Shown: positions 278 to 11,986 of the stretch, in pieces
Layout: each line of letters starts with the position of its first letter
Position numbering within the stretch: position 1 is the first letter of the stretch
Made by a program: the position numbers and the translations under genes
Assembly (NCBI GenBank): GCA_030650395.1
Contig: JAUSDY010000078.1
Coordinates: 62,001 to 126,000, forward strand
Reading direction: 5' to 3'
Length of the DNA: 64,000 nucleotides
Origin: Acidobacteriota bacterium
GTDB taxonomy: Bacteria; Acidobacteriota; Vicinamibacteria; Vicinamibacterales; UBA2999
Notes under the pieces: model-generated
What the model was told of the DNA's origin: nothing
Databases searched by the model: none
Seen by the model: the letters and a program-made list of their open reading frames with translations, nothing else

Positions 278-373
278 CGCGACGAGAGGTTGATTTGAGA
301 AAAAGCGGTGAGCTTACGTGGCGCTTCATGAGCTGGGCCCAACGCTTTTTGCTCAAAGCAACTTCTCGTCGCG
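278..373. repeat. Long imperfect hairpin, about 30-bp arms
   Basis: The left arm (278-307) begins CGCGACGAGAGGTTG and ends AAAAAGCG. The right arm (343-373) begins CGCTTTTTGCTC and ends TCTCGTCGCG. The arms pair over about 30 positions with a few mismatches around a 35-base loop. It lies 36 bases past the 3' end of the minus-strand gene at 409-909 and could act in transcript termination or be a MITE-like relic. Confidence 0.55.
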
Positions 374-408
374 TAGCGGGGCCGGCTGCCACCGCGAACG
401 AGTCTGTG

Positions 409-909
409 TCACTGCGTGCAGCGAGGGGCGGCGATGTTCATGCCTTGCATCAACATCGCGCGGTAGTCGGCAATCTCCTGCTCGCATTTACTCTTCTTGC
501 TCTTCTCCCACAACTTCAAGCCGGCCCACCACGCCAGGGCGGAGATCGGCGCCGCCTGCTGGCGGTAGATCTGCGGCGTCAGGAAGTCGATGATCTGCCG
601 ATGCGTCGGCGCGCTGTTGGGGGCGTCGCCGTGCAGGATGTCGACGTCTTTGAGGAGATCGATGCGAGGCGCGAAGCCGTAGACCTGTACCGCAAACTCG
701 ATGCGCAGCGGCGTGGTTGATTGCTTTTCCCTGGATTCTGAAACGCGCAGGCCCTTCTGGATGCGCGCGAGCGAGACGCCAAGCTTGGTGGCGTCAATCG
801 CCGTCGGCTGATCCGCCGGCGCGGGCCTGGCTTCGCTGTCCTGGGCCCACGCAGGCGCGGAGGCGCTCAGGACCAGCAACAGCAGAGCGAGGGCCCGCAT
901 AACAGCCAT
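409..909 (-). CDS. Secreted protein of unknown function
   Basis: I do not recognise this 166-residue protein. It opens with a signal peptide (MAVMRALALLLLVLSASAPAWAQ, likely cleavage after AWA), so it is probably exported. A short acidic linker follows, then a region (about 40-100) of alternating hydrophobic and charged residues, with a C-terminal segment rich in Lys, Trp and Cys (WWAGLKLWEKSKKSKC). A second in-frame ATG three codons in is an equally good start. It is the last minus-strand gene before the repeats at 1-408 and is separated from sufT by a GGGCTT-type repeat block, so it may not belong to the suf operon. Confidence 0.6.
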   Translation of the reverse strand: MAVMRALALLLLVLSASAPAWAQDSEARPAPADQPTAIDATKLGVSLARIQKGLRVSESREKQSTTPLRIEFAVQVYGFAPRIDLLKDVDILHGDAPNSAPTHRQIIDFLTPQIYRQQAAPISALAWWAGLKLWEKSKKSKCEQEIADYRAMLMQGMNIAAPRCTQ

Positions 910-919
910 TATGACGTTG

Positions 920-995
920 CTGAGGGCTTGAGGGCTTGGGGACCTGAGGACTTGAGCCGGCCAAGCCCTAAAGCCCTTAAGCCCCCAAGCCCTGG
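920..995. repeat. Intergenic GGGCTT/AAGCCC repeat block
   Basis: Tandem variants of GAGGGCTT and GAGGACTT are followed by their inverse (AAGCCCTTAAGCCC), so the block can fold on itself. The same family occurs at 8455-8484, 12021-12108 and 12732-12764, always at gene ends. Confidence 0.7.
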
Positions 996-1002
996 GGTGC
1001 AG

Positions 1003-1410
1003 CTAGAGCATCCCGAGCTGGAGCTTGGCCGCGTCCGACATCCGGTCGCGGTCCCAGGGCGGGTCCCACACGACCTCGACCTTCGCATCGGTCGCGCCGG
1101 GCACGCTCTTGGCCTTGTCACGCACCTCGACCGGCAGCGACTGCGCCGCGGGACATGCCGGCGCCGTCAGCGTCATCTTGACGCCGACCATGCCGGCCGC
1201 GTCGACGACCACGTCGTAGATCAGCCCCAGCTCGTAGATGTTCACGGGGATCTCGGGGTCGAAGACGGTCTTGAGCGCCTCGATCACGAGCGGGCGGATC
1301 TCGTCGGTCTTGGCGGGGTCCACCGCGATGCCGGCGAGCGATTCGCTCACCGCGTTAGCGGGGCTGTCTTCGGGAAGACCACCAGTTGTCATCATAGGCA
1401 GTAACGTCAT
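1003..1410 (-). CDS. sufT: SufT-type DUF59/MIP18 iron-sulfur assembly protein
   Basis: This 135-residue protein contains a DUF59 domain (about 38-128), the family that assists Fe-S cluster maturation or carriage (SufT, and CIA2/MIP18 in eukaryotes). The family core FDPEIPVNIYELGLIYDV and the motif LTAPACPAAQ with its conserved Cys are intact. I chose the start at 1410 because its ATG overlaps the sufU stop as ATGA, typical of translational coupling; ATGs five and six codons later are alternatives. It is the last gene of the rrf2-isc-suf operon, where SufT usually acts when iron-sulfur demand is high. Confidence 0.88.
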   Translation of the reverse strand: MTLLPMMTTGGLPEDSPANAVSESLAGIAVDPAKTDEIRPLVIEALKTVFDPEIPVNIYELGLIYDVVVDAAGMVGVKMTLTAPACPAAQSLPVEVRDKAKSVPGATDAKVEVVWDPPWDRDRMSDAAKLQLGML

Positions 1411-1880
1411 TCCGTCGAAACGGGCGCGGCGGTGTCGCCTGCCCTGAGCGCAGTCGAAGGGTGCGCCACCGCGGCCTTCATGGTGTGCCACGCCAGGCTC
1501 GCGCACTTGATCCGCGCGGGAAACTCGCGCACGCCGGCCAGCACCGACAGCTTGCCGAGGTCGGCGGTCGGCCCGGCATGATCCGAGGTGATCATCGCCT
1601 GGAACTTGTCGAACAGCTCGCGTGCCTGCTCGACGGTCTTGCCCTTGAGCGCCTCGGTCATCAGCGACGCCGACGCCTTCGAGATCGCGCAGCCGGAACC
1701 CTGGAACGCCACGTCCTTGATCACGTCGCCGTCGAGCGTCACGTACAACGTGAGGCGATCGCCGCACAGCGGGTTGTAGCCCTCCTGCGTGGCGGTCGGC
1801 GCGTCGATGGCGCGGAAGTTTCTCGGCCGGCGATTGTGGTCGAGGATGACTTCCTGGTAGAGCTCGTTGACTTGGGACAT
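1407..1880 (-). CDS. sufU: SufU sulfur-relay / scaffold protein
   Basis: SufU accepts persulfide sulfur from SufS for Fe-S assembly. The protein (157 residues from MSQVNELYQEVILDH) carries the three family cysteines in GYNPLCGD, GSGCAIS and RIKCASLAW. The upstream ATG at 1895 would add five residues. The C-terminal tail AHPSTALRAGDTAAP is not part of the family: it is encoded by a CTGAGCGCAGTCGAAGG-type dispersed repeat at 1440-1461 that runs through the reading frame. sufS lies upstream, separated by a palindromic repeat; sufT follows with a 4-base overlap. Confidence 0.93.
   Translation of the reverse strand: MSQVNELYQEVILDHNRRPRNFRAIDAPTATQEGYNPLCGDRLTLYVTLDGDVIKDVAFQGSGCAISKASASLMTEALKGKTVEQARELFDKFQAMITSDHAGPTADLGKLSVLAGVREFPARIKCASLAWHTMKAAVAHPSTALRAGDTAAPVSTE
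1440..1461. repeat. CTGAGCGCAGTCGAAGG repeat inside sufU
   Basis: A copy of a short imperfectly palindromic repeat. Other copies are in the 3' end of sufD (3283-3306), the 3' end of sufC (4583-4607, diverged) and iscS (7787-7811). All are read in frame. Confidence 0.7.
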
Positions 1881-1895
1881 TTGTTTCGACTGCAA

Positions 1896-1976
1896 TCGCG
1901 GAACTAAAGTTCCGCGCTACATGAACCACACGCTACGACCTTCGCGATCGTGTAGCGCGGAACTTTAGTTCCGCGA
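1896..1976. repeat. Palindromic CGCGGAACTTTAGTTCCGCG repeat pair
   Basis: Two copies of a GCGGAACT-AAAGTTCCGC palindrome face each other with GTAGCGC flanks, so the whole block is an inverted repeat. It sits between sufS and sufU in the transcript. A related pair follows the flavin reductase gene at 37816-37890. Confidence 0.75.
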
Positions 1977-1980
1977 TTAA

Positions 1981-3273
1981 TCACGCGAATACCTCACGCA
2001 CTTTGTGCAAACCGCGCACGAGCGCGTCGATGTCTTCGCGCGTGTTGTAGATGCCGAGCGAGGCCCGGATGGTGGCCGGGATGCAGTAGCGATCCATCAC
2101 CGGCTGCGCGCAGTGCTGGCCGGTGCGGACGGCCACGCCCTGCTGGTCGAGGATCGTCCCCGCGTCGTGCGGATGCACGCCCTCGAGCATGAACGACAGC
2201 ACGCCGGTCTTGTGCCGCGCCTCGCCGATGATGCGCGCCCCCGGAATCGCTCGCACTTGCTCGGTGGCGTACCCGAGCACCGCGTCTTCATGCACCAGCG
2301 CCGCCGCGCGATCGATCGTCGACAGGTAGTCAACCGCGGCGCCGAGCCCGACGACGCCGGCGATGTTGGGCGTGCCGGCCTCGAACTTGTACGGCACCTG
2401 GTTATAGAGCGTCTTCTCGAAGGTGACCGACGAGATCATGTCGCCGCCGCCTTGATACGGTGGCATGGCTTCGAGCAGCTTCTTGCGGCCGTAGAGCACG
2501 CCGGTGCCGGTCGGCCCGAACATCTTGTGGCTCGACAGCACGTAGAAATCGCAGTCGAGCGCCTGCACGTCGATCGGCAGATGCGGCGCCGCCTGCGCGC
2601 CGTCGATCAGCACGACCGCGCCGTGCGTGCGGGCCTGCGCGATCATCTCCTTGATCGGATTGATCGTGCCGAGCGCGTTCGAAACGTGGCCGATCGCCAC
2701 GATCTTCGTCCGCGGCGACAGCAGCTTCGCGTACTGATCCTGATCGATCTCGCCAAGGTCGTTGATCGGCACCACCGTGATCGCGGCGCCGGTCTGCCCG
2801 GCCACCAGCTGCCACGGCACGATGTTCGAGTGATGCTCCAGCCACGACAGCAGGATCTCGTCGCCGGGCTTCAGCGTCGATCGCCCGTAACTCTGCGCGA
2901 CCAGGTTGATGCCGTCGGTCGTGCCCTTGGTCAGCACGATGGTGCGAGGATCGGGGGCGTTGAGGAAGCGCGCCGCCTTGGCGCGCCCGCCCTCATAGAG
3001 CGCCGTCGCGCGCTCGCTCAACAGGTGCGTCGCGCGATGGATGTTGGCGTTGGCGTGGCGATAGTAGTCGTCCATCGCCTGCAACACGGACGTGGGCTTC
3101 TGGCTGGTGTTGGCGCTGTCCAGATACACCAGCGGCTTGCCGTGCACCCGCTCGGACAGAATCGGAAAATCCGCGCGGACCTTCATCACGTCAAACCCGG
3201 AAGGAGTTTCTGCCTTCTGCCTTTTGCCTTCTGCCTTCACGTTGCCTTCTGCCTTGACCGTGGCCGTCGCCAT
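1981..3273 (-). CDS. sufS: SufS cysteine desulfurase
   Basis: This PLP enzyme (430 residues) takes sulfur from cysteine and passes it to SufU. The family signature is complete: DGAQAAPHLPIDV, the PLP lysine in SSHKMFGPTG, and the active-site Cys in RTGQHCAQP (about residue 388). Group II character fits the adjacent sufU. The ATG at 3273 overlaps the sufD stop by one base (TGATG). The first 29 residues ([16 protein letters not shown]) come from a heptameric CCTTCTG repeat and are foreign to the family; the conserved part begins at MKVRADFPIL (3186), which could be the true start. Confidence 0.95.
   Translation of the reverse strand: MATATVKAEGNVKAEGKRQKAETPSGFDVMKVRADFPILSERVHGKPLVYLDSANTSQKPTSVLQAMDDYYRHANANIHRATHLLSERATALYEGGRAKAARFLNAPDPRTIVLTKGTTDGINLVAQSYGRSTLKPGDEILLSWLEHHSNIVPWQLVAGQTGAAITVVPINDLGEIDQDQYAKLLSPRTKIVAIGHVSNALGTINPIKEMIAQARTHGAVVLIDGAQAAPHLPIDVQALDCDFYVLSSHKMFGPTGTGVLYGRKKLLEAMPPYQGGGDMISSVTFEKTLYNQVPYKFEAGTPNIAGVVGLGAAVDYLSTIDRAAALVHEDAVLGYATEQVRAIPGARIIGEARHKTGVLSFMLEGVHPHDAGTILDQQGVAVRTGQHCAQPVMDRYCIPATIRASLGIYNTREDIDALVRGLHKVREVFA
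3208..3256. repeat. CCTTCTG/CCTTTTG heptamer repeat in sufS 5' end
   Basis: Six or so 7-base units, read in frame as KAEG and RQKAE at the SufS N-terminus. Same family as 7163-7246 and 9047-9126. Confidence 0.7.
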
Positions 3274-4561
3274 CACAACCCTCCTGGGCTGAGCGCAGTC
3301 GAAGCCCGCACATCGCGCTCGAGCGCGCTGAACAACGTCGCCGAAATCTGCTCGCGCAGCTCGGGAATCTTCAACCCGTCGAGCACTTCGCCGGCAAACG
3401 CGTGCAGCAGCAGGTCGCGCGCCTCGGTCCGGTTCAGGCCGCGCGCCTGCAGGTAGAACATCGCTTCTTCGTCGAGCTGCCCCACCGCCGCCCCGTGCGT
3501 GCACTTGACGTCGTCCGCGAAAATCTCGAGCTGCGGGTTCGAGTTGATGGTGCAATCGTCCGACAGCAGCAACGCGCGATTGGTCTGCTTCGCGTCGGTC
3601 TTCTGCGCGTCGATGCGCACGATGATGCGGCCGTTGAAGACCGCCTTCGCCTTGCCGGCCAGGATGCCCTTGTAGATCTCGTGGCTGGTGCAATGGGCCG
3701 TCGCGTGATCGAGAGAGGTGTGCGTGTCCATCAGGCGATCGCCGTCGGCGAGATAGACGCCGTTGATCGTGCAGTCGGCGCCCTCGCCCTTCAGGCCGAT
3801 GCCGATGTCGTGCCGCATGATCCGGCTGCCGGTCGAGAACGCGTGCGACGCAAACACACCCTTGGCCTCGACGTGGACCTGCAGGTTGAAGACGTGAAAC
3901 GCTTTGTCCGACTCGCGCTGGTCCGTGGAGAAGTCGACGATCGCGCCTTCTTCCACCACGACTTCCGCGACGGCGTTATTGAAGTAGACGTCGCCCGGCG
4001 CGCCGATGAATGTCTGCGCGATGCGGACCTGGCTGTTCGCGCCCGCAATGACGAGCGTGCGCGGGTGCGCCACCACGCCCTTGCCGTCGCCGCTCGTGAC
4101 CACCACGATGTGAATCGGCGTTTCGACGACCGCGCCCCTCGTCACCATGATCGCCACGCCATCGTCCAGGAACGAGGTATTGAGCGCCGCGAACGGATGC
4201 GTGTCGATGCTGAAGACCCGGCCGAGGTGCTGTTCGATGCCGTCGGTGGCATCCCGCGCGCCGTCGCGCAGGCTCGCAATGCGAATGCCCTTGGGTAGCG
4301 CACTCAAGTCGGACAGGCCGGCCGCAAACTGGCCGTTGATGATGGCCAGCCGCACCGATCCAGGAACCGCCACGCTGTTGACGAGCGACGCGGCGTGCTG
4401 TGGCGCGCCGTGGGCCAGGGGAAAGTTACTGTCGGCAATCGGCGCGACGTTCGTGAAGCGCCACTCTTCTTGACGCGTGGTCGGGAAACCCGTCTGGGCG
4501 AAACGGGCCTTCGCTTTCGCGCGTCGCTCCTCCACCCACGCGGGTGTGCTGGTCGTCGTGG

Positions 4562-4565
<4 letters not shown>
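3273..4565 (-). CDS. sufD: SufD, Fe-S assembly scaffold subunit
   Basis: SufD pairs with SufB and the ATPase SufC in the SufBC2D scaffold. The 430-residue protein has the SUF family beta-helix: QVRIAQTFIGAPGDVYFNNAVAEVVVE in the middle, and the C-terminal NPQLEIFADDVKCTHGAAVGQLDEEAMFYLQARG, which includes the conserved CxHGA segment. Translation starts at a GTG (4565) that overlaps the sufC stop as GTGA. The last residues (RASTALSPGGL) are encoded by the CTGAGCG repeat at 3283-3306 rather than by family sequence. Confidence 0.94.
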
Positions 4566-5347
<782 letters not shown>

Positions 5348-5350
5348 GAT

Positions 5351-6796
<1,446 letters not shown>

Positions 6797-6800
6797 GGTT

Positions 6801-6831
6801 TGGTTATTCGCAATTCGTTATTGGTTATTTC
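6801..6831. repeat. AT-rich GGTTATTCG(T/C)AATTGG minisatellite
   Basis: One of four copies of this low-GC repeat (others at 10602-10637, 29264-29292, 31064-31098). Here it lies in the sufA-sufB gap. Confidence 0.65.
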
Positions 6832-6832
6832 A

Positions 6833-7162
6833 TTAAGCGGAGAATGATTCTCCGCAGCCGCACGTGCTGGTGGCGTGCGGATTCTTCAATGTGAAGCTGG
6901 TCGCCAGCAGGTTGTTCTCGTCGAAGTCGAGCACCGTGCCGTCGAGCAGCTTCAGGCTGCGCGGGTCGACGAACACCTTCGCGCCGCCGGTGCCCTCGAA
7001 CACGTGATCGCTCTCGCGCGCGGCTTCGTCCCAGGCGAACTGGTAGCTGAAGCCCGAGCAGCCGCCGGCCTTCACCGCAATGCGGAGGCCGCCCTGCGGC
7101 CGCTCGGTCTTGGCCAGCTGGCGCGTAATCACCCGCGCCGCGCTTTCGGTAATCTCGATCAT
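6833..7162 (-). CDS. sufA: A-type Fe-S carrier (SufA/ErpA/IscA family)
   Basis: The 109-residue protein is a full-length A-type carrier that delivers Fe-S clusters to apo-enzymes. The three ligand cysteines are in [10 protein letters not shown] (about 35) and TCGCGESF (101 and 103). I start it at [11 protein letters not shown] (7162). The larger frame reaching 7327 would only add translated heptamer repeat (RRQKAEG). The base just upstream on the coding strand, AGGCAGAAGGAAATG, shows that the last repeat unit supplies a Shine-Dalgarno-like AGAAGG. Which A-type subfamily it is cannot be told from motifs alone. Confidence 0.92.
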
Positions 7163-7246
7163 TTCCTTCTGCCTTCTGCCTTCTGCCTTCTGCCTTTTGC
7201 CTTCTGCCTTCTGCCTTCTGCCTTCTGCCTTCTGCCTTCTGCCTTC
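7163..7246. repeat. CCTTCTG heptamer tandem repeat, about 12 units
   Basis: A nearly perfect 7-base tandem array (one CCTTTTG variant) fills most of the iscS-sufA gap. On the coding strand the unit is GGCAGAA, and its junctions contain AGAAGG, so it can serve as ribosome-binding sequence for sufA. Confidence 0.85.
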
Positions 7247-7286
7247 GACGTCACTAACTGGCAGCGCCCCCACTCGTTGCGGCCAA

Positions 7287-8453
7287 TCAGACGGGTGACA
7301 TGGCACGAAGCCGTGTGACCACATCACTCACCTTGCGCGCCGCATAATCGACTTCGGCTGCGGTCGTCGTTCGACCGATTCCGAAGCGAAGCGATGCGCG
7401 CGCGCGGTCCTTCGAGAGTCCCAACGCAACAAGCACGTGTGATGGTTCAGCCGCGGTGCAGGCCGCGCCGGACGACACCGCGACGTCGTCCAGGCTCACC
7501 AGCAACGCCTCGCCATCAATTCCTTCGAAGCTGACGTTCAGGTTGCCGGGCAGGCGCGCGTCGAGCGTGCCGTTCACCGTCATCCCGTCGGTCGTCGCGC
7601 CGAGCGCTTCGAGCAATCGATCGCGAAGCCCTGTCACGCGCGTCGCTTCTGACGGCATCTCGGCCTGCGCGAGCTCCGCGGCGCGCCCAAAACCCGCGAT
7701 GCCTGGCACGTTCAACGTGCCTGAGCGCATGCCGCGCTCGTGGCCGCCGCCGTCCATCTGCGCGGCGATCTTCACACCGCGGTTGCTTGCCCTGAGCGAA
7801 GTCGAAGGGCGCCGCACATACAAGGCGCCGGCGCCCTTGGGCCCGTAGATCTTGTGGGCCGTGATCGACACCAGGTCGACGTCGAGCGCATCGACATCGA
7901 ACGGCACCTTGCCGACCGCCTGCACCGCGTCGGTGTGGAACCACGCGCCCTTTGAATGGGCCAGCGCGGCCGCTTCCTTGATCGGCTGCAGCACACCGAT
8001 CTCGTTGTTGGCCGCCATCACGCTCACGAGCACGGTTCGCGCGGTGATCGCCGCGTCCAGCTCCGCGAGATCCACCAGTCCGGAACTGCTGACCGGCAGC
8101 ACCGTGACGCGCCAGCCTTCGCTCTCGAGACGCTTCAGCGGATCGAGCACGGCCTTGTGCTCGGTCACCACCGTCACGAGGTGATCGCCGTCACTACGCC
8201 TGGCCTCGGCCGCGCCTTTGATGGCGAGGTTGTTGGCTTCGGTCGCGCCGCTCGTGAAGACCACGTCCTTGCTGCCGGCGCCGATCAACGAGGCGACCTG
8301 CTTTCGCGCCCGCTCGATCGCATCGTTTGCTTCCCACCCGAAGCGATGCTGCTTGCTGGCGGCGTTGCCAAACCGCTCGGTGAAGAACGGCAGCATCGTC
8401 TCGAGCACACGCGCATCGACAGGAGTCGTCGCGTGATGGTCGAGGTAAATCAT
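7287..8453 (-). CDS. iscS: IscS/NifS-type cysteine desulfurase
   Basis: Second PLP cysteine desulfurase of the operon (388 residues), group I. Motifs: [11 protein letters not shown] at the N-terminus, [24 protein letters not shown], the PLP lysine in [12 protein letters not shown], and the long active-site loop [15 protein letters not shown] with the catalytic Cys at about 332. An insertion ([11 protein letters not shown], about 219-229) is encoded by the CTGAGCGAAGTCGAAGG repeat at 7787-7811 and falls in a surface region of the fold. It follows the Rrf2 regulator and precedes sufA, the usual place for iscS in isc-type operons. Confidence 0.93.
7787..7811. repeat. CTGAGCGAAGTCGAAGG repeat inside iscS
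   Basis: In-frame copy within the iscS coding region, adding about ten residues relative to the family. Confidence 0.7.
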
Positions 8454-8454
8454 G

Positions 8455-8484
8455 TCAAGCCCTCAAGCCCACAAGCCCTCAAGT
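8455..8484. repeat. AAGCCCTCAAGCCC repeat between rrf2 and iscS
   Basis: Short member of the GGGCTT/AAGCCC family filling the 36-base gap between the two genes. Confidence 0.6.
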
Positions 8485-8489
8485 CCACG

Positions 8490-8969
8490 TCATTCACCGA
8501 TCGGTGGCACAAACATCATTCGCGTCACCGTGTGCGTCGTCGGCACCGGTGCGGGGCCGTCGTTGTCGGCGGCCATTTCGGCGACCGTCACCGTGGTCAG
8601 CGTTTCGAGAATCCGGTTTTTGATCTTCCAGAGCGGGTCTCGAATGCTGCACTTCGTGTATTGATCGCAGGTGTGGTCGTCGGTCGAGCACGCCGTCACG
8701 GTGACCGGGCCGTCGACGGCCTGGATCACATCGGCGACGGAAATCGTCGACGCGCCGCGTCCCAGCCGATACCCGCCGCGCGTGCCCTGGACCGACACCA
8801 GCAGGCGCGCGCGCACCAGCCGCTGCAGCACCTTGGCGAGCAGCTCCAAAGGGATGTCGTAGGACTCGGAGATCTCACGAGCGCTGGACGACGCACCGCT
8901 TTCCGGCCGCATGGCCAGGTGCTTCATCGAGATCAGGGCGTAGTCGGATTTCTTCGAAAGTCTCAGCAT
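8490..8969 (-). CDS. Rrf2-family Fe-S regulator (IscR-like)
   Basis: This 159-residue winged-helix protein is of the IscR/SufR type. The N-terminal helix-turn-helix (MLRLSKKSDYALISMKHLA, then IPLELLAKVLQRLVRARLLVSVQGTRGGY) binds DNA. Three cysteines in ACSTDDHTCDQYTKC (94, 101, 107) match the spacing that holds a [2Fe-2S] or [4Fe-4S] cluster in this family. It leads the isc-suf operon, so it most likely senses Fe-S status and represses its own transcription through the palindrome at 9020-9044. I chose MLRLSKK (8969) because it matches the family start and follows the promoter. Confidence 0.92.
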   Translation of the reverse strand: MLRLSKKSDYALISMKHLAMRPESGASSSAREISESYDIPLELLAKVLQRLVRARLLVSVQGTRGGYRLGRGASTISVADVIQAVDGPVTVTACSTDDHTCDQYTKCSIRDPLWKIKNRILETLTTVTVAEMAADNDGPAPVPTTHTVTRMMFVPPIGE

Positions 8970-9006
8970 ATTGGGCCGCCTGGCGATATACGACCGCAGC
9001 AGTCCT

Positions 9007-9035
9007 ATTTTAGTGCGAGATGTCCGACACTGCAA
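9007..9035 (-). promoter_or_regulatory. Promoter of the rrf2-isc-suf operon
   Basis: On the minus strand, TTGCAG (9030-9035) and TAAAAT (9007-9012) are separated by exactly 17 bases, a good sigma70 match. The -35 box lies inside the palindrome at 9020-9044. The start codon follows about 38 bases after the -10. Confidence 0.65.
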
Positions 9036-9044
9036 GTCGGCTAT
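9020..9044 (-). promoter_or_regulatory. Candidate Rrf2/IscR operator
   Basis: A 25-base element reads ATAGCCGACT on one side and GTGTCGGACAT on the other. Its core is CCGAC-N7-GTCGG and it resembles the outer half-site (ATA..YYGACT) of type 1 IscR sites, though the centre diverges. It overlaps the -35 box, as expected for autorepression. Confidence 0.5.
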
Positions 9045-9046
9045 AC

Positions 9047-9126
9047 AAGGCAGAAGGCACAAGGCAGAAGGCAAAACCAAGCCTTTCTGCCTTGTGCCTT
9101 TTGCCTTTTGCCTTTTGCCTTTTGCC
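9047..9126. repeat. Heptamer repeat forming an inverted repeat
   Basis: AAGGCAGAAGG-type units (9047-9077) are followed by their inverse (CCTTTTGCC units, 9085-9126), so the RNA would fold into a long hairpin directly after the cysO-moeZ stop codon and before the rrf2 promoter. It could terminate the upstream transcript. Confidence 0.6.
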
Positions 9127-10590
9127 TTAGTACTTCGGCTGACTGGGATCGACCTGATCGATCCACCCGAGGATGCCGCCGGTCAGGTTCCTGACGTTCG
9201 TAAACCCTTTAGAACGAAGGAATTCCTGCGCCTTGGCGCTACGCATCCCGGACTTGCACTGGGTGACGATCGCGGCATTCGGGTCGAGCTCGACGTAGCG
9301 CTTGGGCAGGTCCCCTAGCGGCAACAGGATCGATCCCGGAATCCGGTTGATCTGGTATTCCTGCGGTTCCCGCACGTCAACAATCACCACGTTCGCGCCG
9401 CGGTCGAGCTCCGCTTTCAGCTCGCTCGACGTCAACGCCGCAGCACCGGCGCCGGCGGCCGCCGTTTTCGCCGCAGCTTCTGCAACCTGATGCGGAGCCA
9501 CACCGCAGAATTGTTCGTAGTCGATCAGTTTCTTCACCGTCGGATGCGTGCCGCAGACCGGGCAATCGGCGTCCTTGCGCAGCTTCAGCTCGCGGAAGCG
9601 CATCCGCAGCGCGTCGTAGATCAGGAAGCGCCCGATCAACGGTTCGCCGACGCCGAGGATCAACTTGATCGTTTCGGTGGCCTGGATCACGCCGATGATG
9701 CCGGGCAGCACGCCGAATACGCCGCCCTCGGCGCAACTCGGCACCAACCCGGGGGGCGGCGGCTCGGGATAGAGGCAGCGATAGCACGGGCCGTCTTTCG
9801 CGCCGAACACCGAGGCTTGCCCTTCGAAGCGGAAGATGCTGCCGTAGGCGTTGGGCTTGCCTGACAGCACGCACGCGTCGTTCACGAGGTAGCGCGTCGG
9901 AAAATTATCGGTGCCGTCGAGAATCACGTCGTACGGCTCGAACAGGCGCATCGCGTTCTCGGAGCTGAGCGCGGCGTCATAGGTCTCGATGTGCACGTTC
10001 GGGTTGAGCGCGTTCAACCGATCCTTCGCCGAATCGAGCTTCGGCCGCCCGACGTCCGGCGTGCCGTGCAGCAGCTGCCGCTGCAGGTTGCTGAAATCCA
10101 CCACGTCGAAGTCGACGATGCCGATGGTGCCGACGCCGGCGGCGGCGAGGTACATCGCGGCCGGCGAGCCAAGGCCACCCGCGCCGATGCACAGCACCTT
10201 GGCGGCCTTCAGCTTGCGCTGGCCGTCGACGCCGACCTCCGGCATGATCAGGTGGCGGCTGTAACGCTTGATCTCGTCGCCCGACAACTCCGGCAACGTT
10301 TCGGTCGCCGCGGGCGCGCCACCGGCCACCGACGGGATGATGCTGACGGTGTCGCCCGCCTTCACCGGCGTCTGATCCTTCTGCAAGTAGCGGATGTCGT
10401 CATCATTCACATAGACGTTGACGAAGCTGCGCAGCTTGCCATCGGCGGCGTAGAGATGCTGCTTGAGGCCCGCGTACTTCGTGGTGAGGTTCTGCAGCAG
10501 CTCGCCGACGGTCGCGCCGTCGATCTCGACGGCATCAAGCTTCTCAGTGAACGGCCTCAGCGGTGTCGGGATCAGAATCTTAGTGGCCAT
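9127..10590 (-). CDS. CysO - MoeZ (E1-like) - rhodanese fusion
   Basis: A three-domain, 487-residue protein. Residues 1-91 are a ubiquitin-like sulfur carrier of the CysO type (IPTPLRPFTEKL, KLRSFVNVYVNDDDIRY, ending SIIPSVAGG with the Gly-Gly at 90-91). Residues about 100-370 are a MoeZ/ThiF-type adenylating domain: KRYSRHLIMPEVGVDG, GAGGLGSPAAMYL, DFDVVDFSNLQRQ, and Zn pairs in CYRC and CPVC. Residues about 385-487 are a rhodanese with active loop CKSGMRS (Cys445). In mycobacteria these are two separate proteins that make a CysO thiocarboxylate for CysM. Here the carrier Gly-Gly is internal, followed by Ala92. mec and cysM lie just upstream in the same operon. Confidence 0.93.
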   Translation of the reverse strand: MATKILIPTPLRPFTEKLDAVEIDGATVGELLQNLTTKYAGLKQHLYAADGKLRSFVNVYVNDDDIRYLQKDQTPVKAGDTVSIIPSVAGGAPAATETLPELSGDEIKRYSRHLIMPEVGVDGQRKLKAAKVLCIGAGGLGSPAAMYLAAAGVGTIGIVDFDVVDFSNLQRQLLHGTPDVGRPKLDSAKDRLNALNPNVHIETYDAALSSENAMRLFEPYDVILDGTDNFPTRYLVNDACVLSGKPNAYGSIFRFEGQASVFGAKDGPCYRCLYPEPPPPGLVPSCAEGGVFGVLPGIIGVIQATETIKLILGVGEPLIGRFLIYDALRMRFRELKLRKDADCPVCGTHPTVKKLIDYEQFCGVAPHQVAEAAAKTAAAGAGAAALTSSELKAELDRGANVVIVDVREPQEYQINRIPGSILLPLGDLPKRYVELDPNAAIVTQCKSGMRSAKAQEFLRSKGFTNVRNLTGGILGWIDQVDPSQPKY

Positions 10591-10601
10591 GCAATTTTCT
10601 T

Positions 10602-10637
10602 TTGGTTATTCGTAATTGGTTATTCGTTATTAACGGG
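10602..10637. repeat. AT-rich GGTTATTCGTAATTGG minisatellite
   Basis: Copy of the low-GC repeat between mec and the cysO-moeZ start; it also encodes the last residues of Mec (EPVNNE). Confidence 0.6.
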
Positions 10638-11033
10638 CTCTTCATCAAAGGCCGTTCGATCGTCCTTCAACCGCCACGAAGTCAGGTCCTTGTCTTCGCC
10701 CGCCATTACCGAGACGATCACGTACGAAAACGACGGCCACGCGTGATCGAGATCGTACTGCGACGGGCGCGCCGGGTGATCCGGGTGCGAATGGTAAAAG
10801 CCCAGCAGGTCCAGTCCCGCCTCGCGCGCGCGTTGTTCGGCCGCTCGGTAATCGTCGGGCCGGACCAGGAAGCGCCGGCGCGGCCCTTCCTCGGTGGTGT
10901 TGGCCAGCGGATGCGCTTCGAGCACCACGCCGTCGCGGCCGAGCATGGCGCCGCAACACTCGGACGGGAACGTCTGCCGCCCATGATCGCGGATCGCCGT
11001 ATCCACGGCCTTCTTCAGCACGACGCCCGCCAT
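10620..11033 (-). CDS. mec: Mec-type JAMM (M67) metalloprotease
   Basis: The 137-residue protein is a stand-alone JAMM peptidase. The metal and catalytic residues are all present: Glu25 in FPSECCGAMLG, then HSHPDHPARPSQYD (His81, His83, Asp94). In mycobacteria Mec hydrolyses the CysO-cysteine adduct to release cysteine. The start codon overlaps the cysM stop by one base, and the CysO-bearing fusion follows 29 bases later, so the same role is very likely. It may also have to cut after the internal Gly-Gly of the fusion. The C-terminal PVNNE comes from the AT-rich repeat. Confidence 0.92.
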   Translation of the reverse strand: MAGVVLKKAVDTAIRDHGRQTFPSECCGAMLGRDGVVLEAHPLANTTEEGPRRRFLVRPDDYRAAEQRAREAGLDLLGFYHSHPDHPARPSQYDLDHAWPSFSYVIVSVMAGEDKDLTSWRLKDDRTAFDEEPVNNE

Positions 11034-11986
11034 CAGTTGGTGCCGCAGATCGACGCGCCTTCGGGGGGATCCTCCCAGAAGCGCTCAGACAGGTAGCGCT
11101 CGCCGCCGTCACAAAACACCACCACCACCACGGCGTCTTTGCCGGCCACCTTGAGCGCGCCGGCGAGGTTGGCGCCGCTCGAGATGCCGACCAGCAGCCC
11201 TTCTTCCTGCGCGAGGCGGCGCGTCATCTCGTACGCCTCTTCGGTGCCGACGCGGACGTCTTCATCCGCGAGCGTCGCATCGTAGATGCCGGGCACCATC
11301 GCCGACTCCATGTGTTTCAGCCCCTCGAGGCCGTGGAGTGGTGAATCGGGCTGCACCGACGCCAGCACGATCTCTTCGTTGAACTCGCGCAGCCGCCGGC
11401 CGGCGCCGACAAACGTGCCGCTCGTGCCGAGACCGGCGACGAAATGCGTGAGTCGGGCGCCCACCTGCCGGATGATCTCGGGGCCCGTCGTGTCGTAGTG
11501 CGCCTTCCAGTTGAAGTCGTTGTTGTATTGATCGGCGTAAAAATATTTCGCCGGGTTCGACTCATGCGTCCGTTGCGCCATGCGGATGGCGCCATCAGAA
11601 CCTTCGAGCGGATCGGTGAACGTCAAGCCGGCGCCGTAGGCGCGCAGGATGCGTTTTCGTTCGGGCGTGACGTTCTCGGGCAGGCACAGCTCGACTTTGA
11701 AGCCGAGCGCCGCGCCCATCATCGCGTAGGCGATGCCGGTGTTGCCGGAGGTGGCGTCGAGAATGACCCGGCCGGGCGCGAGCTGCCCCGACGACAGACC
11801 TTCCTGAATCATCCGCAGCGCGGGCCGATCCTTCACCGAGCCGCCGGGGTTCTGCCATTCCGCTTTCGCGTACAGCTCGACACCGGGAACCGCGCGCTCG
11901 ATCCGGCGCAGGCGGATGAGCGGCGTGTTGCCGACCAGGTCGACGATCGAAGGGTTGACGCGCGCGGATTCCGTTGGGATTGCCAT
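11033..11986 (-). CDS. cysM: CysM-type cysteine synthase
   Basis: A fold-type II PLP enzyme (317 residues) making cysteine from an activated serine and a sulfur donor. The PLP lysine is in NPGGSVKDRPA (Lys52); the pyridoxal-phosphate loop TSGNTGIAYAMMG and GLGTSGTFVGAG are intact. Clustering with a CysO carrier and Mec indicates that the sulfur donor is protein thiocarboxylate and the acceptor probably O-phosphoserine, as in mycobacteria; the sequence alone does not settle the acceptor. The gene leads the operon. Confidence 0.92.
   Translation of the reverse strand: MAIPTESARVNPSIVDLVGNTPLIRLRRIERAVPGVELYAKAEWQNPGGSVKDRPALRMIQEGLSSGQLAPGRVILDATSGNTGIAYAMMGAALGFKVELCLPENVTPERKRILRAYGAGLTFTDPLEGSDGAIRMAQRTHESNPAKYFYADQYNNDFNWKAHYDTTGPEIIRQVGARLTHFVAGLGTSGTFVGAGRRLREFNEEIVLASVQPDSPLHGLEGLKHMESAMVPGIYDATLADEDVRVGTEEAYEMTRRLAQEEGLLVGISSGANLAGALKVAGKDAVVVVVFCDGGERYLSERFWEDPPEGASICGTN

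Follow-up and report, generated by a model that had tools for sequence, protein, structure and literature searches.

A predicted double operator at the promoter of an Rrf2-headed isc/suf gene run in Acidobacteriota

The window, by which we mean the entire stretch of 64,000 nucleotides of Acidobacteriota DNA that was analyzed, carries a gene for an Rrf2-type regulator on its minus strand (8490–8969; 159 amino acids, with Cys94-X6-Cys101-X5-Cys107). It is followed on the same strand by an iscS-like cysteine desulfurase gene (7287–8453), sufA for an A-type carrier (6833–7162), sufB (5351–6796), sufC (4562–5347), sufD (3273–4565), the cysteine desulfurase gene sufS (1981–3186), sufU (1407–1895) and, as the ninth and last gene, a sufT-like one (1003–1365). 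The iscS-like gene, sufB, sufC, sufD and sufU were assigned by profile search. We infer MIEITE as the start of sufA, the open frame being extended ahead of it by repeat-coded sequence, and MKVRADF as that of sufS. The start of the sufT-like gene is provisional, and its product scores 142.2 bits against TIGR02945, 1.2 short of the cut-off of 143.4. The regulator gene had been proposed to head a nine-gene set, and this is what is found: nine same-strand Fe-S genes in the order rrf2-iscS-sufA-B-C-D-S-U-T. They likely share one transcript: a terminator scan of positions 300–9300 returned no excess of sites over shuffled sequence (6 versus 7.2). Two weak promoter-like places occur within the run on the same strand. 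Next to the suf genes, also on the minus strand (9127–11986), lie cysM, a JAMM protease gene (mec) and a ThiS-MoeB-rhodanese fusion gene (moeZ), which we take to resemble the CysO-CysM-Mec pathway of mycobacteria. In several relatives, rrf2 is located closely downstream of cysM-mec-moeZ. In the suf cluster, several of the borders between genes carry arrays of a 7-bp unit, AAGGCAG/AAGGCAA (3208–3238, 7165–7246, 9045–9073 and 9081–9128), a 20-bp version of which has 18 matches in the window versus 0.00 expected. The array at 7165–7246 extends the open frame of sufA by a low-complexity stretch.

Read 5′ to 3′ on the minus strand, the region in front of rrf2 contains two palindromes, O1 (9044–9020) and O2 (9010–8986), ahead of the ATG at 8969; the repeat arrays within 9045–9128 are directly upstream of O1. 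The predicted operator O1, ATAGCCGACTTGCAGTGTCGGACAT (9020–9044, centre 9032), comprises CCGAC (9040–9036), seven bases and GTCGG (9028–9024). The palindrome CCGAC-N7-GTCGG over the −35 box in front of the Rrf2 gene (9024–9040) had thus been described exactly. Inside O1 lies the −35-like hexamer TTGCAG (9030–9035; three of six positions compared to TTGACA), separated by 17 nt from the −10 hexamer TAAAAT (9007–9012; five of six consensus positions), which runs into O2. The predicted operator O2, AAATAGGACTGCTGCGGTCGTATAT (8986–9010, centre 8998), extends over the 3′ part of the −10 as well as the expected start point. Judged by its typical distance from a −10, this point should be near 9000, in O2; O1 is upstream of it. 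The distance between both centres is 34 bp. While hexamers and spacing were correct in the original prediction, its wording of a well-formed promoter is an overstatement, because the −35 matches at only three of six positions and a promoter scan requiring at least nine of 12 did not list TTGCAG-N17-TAAAAT. The single operator that it described did not hold either, as O2 had been overlooked; the observation is real, and was understated. O2 is the better conserved of the two palindromes in the genomes compared.

O1 has two mismatches to the type-1 consensus of E. coli IscR (17 of 19 fixed positions match), and its core is also that of RisR, an Rrf2 protein of Myxococcus xanthus. Matches at up to three mismatches are expected 0.03 times per window, and O1 is the sole place in the 5.4-Mb genome with two mismatches or fewer. 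Genome-wide, the three-mismatch level is uninformative (12 strand hits versus 13 for the reversed control). The O1 palindrome is not due to chance, and the evidence from conservation is stronger than that from consensus matching. For this comparison, 58 rrf2 loci (that of the window and 57 others) were drawn from 60 genomes including the window's, 57 of which gave a match; matches of 76.7 bits or less and one gene cut by a contig end (G020) were excluded. The conservation upstream of orthologous rrf2 genes on which the original prediction hinged is borne out for many of them. In 44 of the 58 loci, the 150 nt upstream contain GAC-N7-GTC, compared to a mean of 2.34 and a maximum of eight in 200 rounds of shuffling and to none in 53 far-upstream windows of the same loci. 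O2 is found at zero to three mismatches in 45 loci and the remaining 13 have five to seven, which separates two clear groups. For L043, which belongs to these 45, the palindrome scored was the wrong one of two; its O2 is likely the adjoining ATATCAGACCATCCCGGTCGGGTAT. O1 was detected in 29 of the 45 O2-bearing loci, leaving, by the criteria used, 13 of 58 loci without O2 and 16 of 45 without O1. Five additional rrf2 loci beyond the 58 (L097, L101, L103, L105 and L107) all carry O2, and four carry O1. With one mismatch allowed, the O2 pattern is present in 48 of the 60 genomes, and the reversed control produced two hits in all 60 together. In two relatives from the Chlorobiota/Ignavibacteria (L110 and L111; 40–41% identity), GAC-N7-GTC is absent within 200 nt. 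On an Oligoflexia contig (L112:4855), the centre of ATATAGGACTGAATCGGTCATATAT lies 146 nt in front of an Rrf2 gene of 35% identity.

Isc or suf genes were present in the stretch examined around rrf2 in all 58 loci, 51 of which contain iscS and seven sufA-B without iscS. In two loci (L056 and L062), iscS follows behind a suf run that starts with sufA. Two genomes of one genus (G018 and G033; loci L071, L072, L038 and L045) encode a pair of Rrf2 paralogues. One is accompanied by iscS, the other by sufA-B-C-D-S-U-T, and the latter alone has its own O2.

Within the window's genus, eight distinct genomes were aligned in nine rows (L093 duplicates G007). The invariant blocks include CGACTTGC, GTC, TAA, TAGGAC and GGTCG, with variable sequence in between, and O1 is invariant as CGACTTGC-N3-GTC in the eight distinct genomes. 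These blocks take in the TTG of the −35 and some of the −10, as would be expected if conservation merely reflected a promoter and shared ancestry, with no operator involved. This explanation is extremely unlikely, however, given that the right half of O2 (GGTCG-AT-T), downstream of the −10, is also invariant in the genus, that the sites recur before unrelated genes and that the position of O1 varies across the loci in steps that the promoter does not follow. The distance between O1 and O2 in the 29 loci is 34 (n = 8), 35 (n = 8), 39 (n = 7), 40 (n = 5) or 42 bp (n = 1), or 16 loci in a 34/35-bp class, 12 in a 39/40-bp class and one at 42 bp. These classes are 5 bp apart while the distance between −35 and −10 remains 17 or 18 nt, as it does for the −35 TTG in 32 of the 45 O2 loci. 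In the 34/35-bp class, the −35 starts with TTGC in 13 of 16 loci and lies inside the 7-bp centre of the palindrome. When O1 is farther away, the −35 is TTGACG in ten and TTGATC in two of 13 loci. The palindrome thereby loses one base of the core on its right side, GTC becoming GAC, as in ATACCCGACCAAACTTGACGGGTAT of L039. The O1 classes may therefore represent promoter strength traded against operator quality, with the bound dimer shifted by about half a helical turn.

The regulator belongs to the Rrf2 superfamily (PF02082: 110.8 bits, cut-off 30; TIGR00738: 110.3, cut-off 73.3), its fold being assigned on the basis of Pfam. Three cysteines before the dimerisation helix, spaced as C-X6/7-C-X5-C, occur in 58 of 58 loci and could be Fe-S cluster ligands. 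The original prediction likened the palindrome to type-1 IscR sites, and the regulator might accordingly be a genuine IscR that reads such sites with a [2Fe-2S] cluster. The match of O1 to the type-1 consensus at all but two positions agrees with this, and the solved structures that the regulator matches best in sequence are IscR chains by name. Nonetheless, the regulator falls far below the IscR cut-offs (TIGR02010: 86.8 versus 207.55; PRK10857: 74.3 versus 275), and a higher score is reached with TIGR02944, the SUF regulator of the Xanthomonas type, which is its best equivalog at 101 bits, though under the cut-off of 110.65. Compared with the solved IscR chains, the DNA-reading residues Ser40, Glu43 and Gln44 of IscR (PMC9973013) align to Glu, Ala and Lys in a recognition helix, [ED]L[LM]AK[VI][LM]Q, that is kept in 58 of 58 loci. 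The wing residue Arg59 of IscR is Gln here (across the 58: Gln in 53, Lys in four and His in one). The third residue after the last cysteine is Arg in 58 of 58 loci, compared to His in IscR. IscR cysteines are spaced X5/X5, a region in which the solved chains carry substitutions, and not X6/X5 as in the window. A genuine IscR is thus unlikely. The palindrome resembles a type-1 site, but a strict IscR site is not supported, with the IscR cut-off missed, the reading residues replaced and a core that is equally RisR's. The earlier interpretation is partly supported: right in kind, it names a less fitting relative.

In the window's own genome, a good site occurs only at the rrf2 promoter. The O2-type pattern at up to three mismatches gives 121 strand hits versus 81 for the control; neither it nor the type-1 pattern supports a wider regulon there, and the search for a second member was negative. 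Its erpA (L187, G000:C156) has no site better than four mismatches in a 3.3-kb stretch, and the best matches before cysM in the window have five and six mismatches, i.e., no good site. At this locus, the gene for the erpA-type carrier is located between a fumarase-like gene and a Fur-family gene, all on one strand. Looking for the same palindrome near other Fe-S genes had been suggested; this gave no good site in the window's genome, and in some relatives sites before separate suf operons and erpA. Across the 60 genomes, 21 O2-pattern places are not in front of rrf2. Seven precede cysM-mec-moeZ, three separate sufA/sufB operons and three erpA-type carriers, two are flanked by an FTR1 permease gene and a gene divergent to it, and one stands before a radical-SAM gene, the opposite flank being occupied by a divergent gene; five have no clear link (L081, L090, L091 and two in G028). 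The two FTR1-type iron permease loci (L084 and L087) come from two families of the order, and the divergent gene encodes a secreted-looking protein that resembles a von Willebrand A protein by eye. In two genomes (L085 and L086), a second palindrome, GACC-N5-GGTC (equal to GAC-N7-GTC), directly follows the operator before sufB.

The link with cysM was examined in 18 loci in which the start of cysM is nearly complete (the window, L073–L078, L083, L119, L120, L124, L127, L128, L130, L131, L132, L133 and L136). A site at two mismatches or fewer precedes cysM in 14 of them, seven of which (L073–L078 and L083) had been chosen because of a site; among loci chosen regardless of a site, seven out of ten carry one. 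The loci without are the window, L124 and L127 (3 mismatches), all of one genus, and L130. Not counted were loci with no or only a partial cysM match, as well as L122 and L135 (best match 36% identical), the former without and the latter with a site. The cysM link is restricted to some genera, because six named loci outside the window's genus (L097, L098, L103, L105, L106 and L107) have no cysM site and, within that genus, the link is absent in all three readable cysM starts (the window, L124 and L127), where the site is degenerate. Note that L106 is the genome of L130, and that L108 and L109, with a cysM but no site, repeat L124 and L127. In L073–L078, L120, L131 and L136, the operator and start codon of cysM overlap (GTCGGATATG or GTCGGACATG), which would leave the transcript a very short leader. 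For seven of the 13 rrf2 loci without O2, the DNA upstream of moeZ was examined. Three (L083, L119 and L120) have a site at the cysM promoter, two (L118 and L121) have a site at one mismatch in that DNA, and two (L117 and L122) have no site at two mismatches or fewer upstream of moeZ. A joint loss of rrf2 and site in G008, a member of the window's genus, was considered and dropped: the suf cluster runs to the contig end just past sufA, so the absence is an assembly gap. Similarly placed at a contig border is the cluster of G031, where the contig starts inside iscS. G046 has suf genes with neither a nearby match to the window's rrf2 nor a site at one mismatch or fewer in the stretch examined, and G016 (78% complete) gave no sufB match.

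In the phylum as a whole, a slightly looser pattern matches in 120 of 297 genomes, many of which may be chance matches, since the control also yields hits. Family f23 stands out with matches in 28 of 33 genomes (117 strand hits versus ten for the control). We inspected 31 loci of this family, chosen among the matches listed; several are one site recurring in sister species, and divergent genes flank some of the sites. Within this choice, three sites precede rrf2-iscS and 11 have the start of a TonB-dependent receptor gene within 450 nt. Others are associated with an OMP_b-brl_4 barrel (n = 1), feoAB (n = 1), sigma factors (n = 2), EF-hand proteins (n = 2) and PepSY-type proteins (n = 4; one above the Pfam cut-off, one below and two by resemblance). 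For seven (L179, L180, L181, L200, L205, L206 and L212), no adjoining gene is recognisably related to iron or Fe-S. Three loci from two more families, picked for their perfect sites (L184, L185 and L186), all precede rrf2-iscS-sufA. Sites before TonB receptors and feoAB would also fit a different reader, i.e., another iron or stress regulator such as one of the Fur family, with rrf2 merely among its targets. Indeed, a Fur-family gene was found in 21 of 22 genomes tested, the window's included. We nevertheless regard such a reader as quite unlikely: the site precedes rrf2 and Fe-S genes across different gene orders, the Fur-family gene of the window's genome adjoins an erpA that is without a good site, and the operator core is that footprinted for RisR, an Rrf2 protein encoded beside suf (PMC9973013).

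The reading that we prefer, and consider highly probable, is a two-operator autoregulatory promoter at which the cluster-loaded regulator would repress through O1 and O2 as a feedback, in the manner of RisR. When clusters are plentiful, the three cysteines of the regulator would hold an Fe-S cluster, and holo dimers would occupy both operators, keeping RNA polymerase off the promoter. When clusters become short, by iron limitation or oxidation, the regulator would lose its cluster and the dimers would leave, upon which the nine genes, including that of the regulator, would be expressed. Its action would resemble that of RisR of M. xanthus more than that of E. coli IscR. In some relatives, the same site is also present before genes for sulfur supply, carriers and iron uptake. 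A broader scenario, which we put forward tentatively and as somewhat less probable than its opposite, is an ancestral Acidobacteriota Fe-S and iron regulon headed by an Rrf2 protein. One GAC-N7-GTC operator would join cluster assembly, CysO/Mec-type cysteine supply, A-type carriers and iron uptake (FTR1, FeoAB and TonB receptors), with lineages adding and shedding members, down to the suf promoter in the window's genus. The double operator would have arisen as operator symmetry was traded for −35 quality, and O1 would occupy two positions that differ by half a helical turn.

Members of the Acidobacteriota are abundant and difficult to cultivate. Among the matches listed in a search of the open-access literature, no printed operator or regulon for an Acidobacteriota Fe-S regulator was found. 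The present analysis provides this phylum with a concrete predicted Fe-S operator, and suggests that the supply of Fe-S clusters, cysteine and iron may share one switch in parts of it. The regulation is of a known kind, with a predicted double operator and, possibly, a wider regulon in relatives.

Several known Rrf2 systems offer points of comparison. RirA of rhizobia, a cluster-bearing Rrf2 protein, is reported to control iron uptake (PMC10510648), which parallels the f23 sites before TonB receptors. It differs in that the regulator of the window scores only 63.5 bits against the RirA model (cut-off 193) and in that the window's genome yielded no iron-uptake site. The SUF regulator of TIGR02944 is the best equivalog and by name a regulator of SUF, but the window's protein remains below its cut-off. 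To our knowledge, no operator has been mapped for it. With E. coli IscR, the regulator shares the Rrf2 fold, the position as first gene of the operon, a palindrome with near-identical core and length and the presence of more than one site per promoter, comparable to the isc operon of Yersinia, upstream of which two type-1 motifs are reported (PMC4055776). It differs in missing the IscR cut-off, in its recognition helix and in carrying Gln instead of Arg59. Moreover, E. coli suf is activated through a type-2 site and not repressed (PMC9973013).

RisR would be the best functional parallel, set beside the regulator by its published description. As reported in PMC9973013, RisR heads suf in M. xanthus and carries a cluster, its holo form, for which [4Fe-4S] is suggested, represses isc and suf, and its footprint reads TtGAC-N7-GTCCt/a over the −10 or −35. 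It is without Ser40, Glu43 and Gln44 of IscR and retains Arg59. RisR is placed in Rrf2 group IS6, which includes Acidobacteria and of which, according to that 2023 paper, no member had been investigated previously (PMC9973013). The differences with RisR are several. In PMC9973013, one protected region of about 30 bp is described per promoter, as opposed to two predicted operators here, and the cysteines (C92, C102 and C108) are spaced X9/X5 rather than X6/X5. Arg59 of RisR is Gln in the window's regulator, the run here also holds iscS and sufA, and in some relatives the site precedes cysM, erpA and genes for iron uptake. In both systems, an Rrf2 gene heads a suf operon, three cysteines are present and the IscR recognition residues Ser40, Glu43 and Gln44 are absent. 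By that same description (PMC9973013), the GAC-N7-GTC core with AT-rich arms over the −10/−35 of suf and isc promoters is a RisR-like operator, and such a core is found at the promoter of the window.
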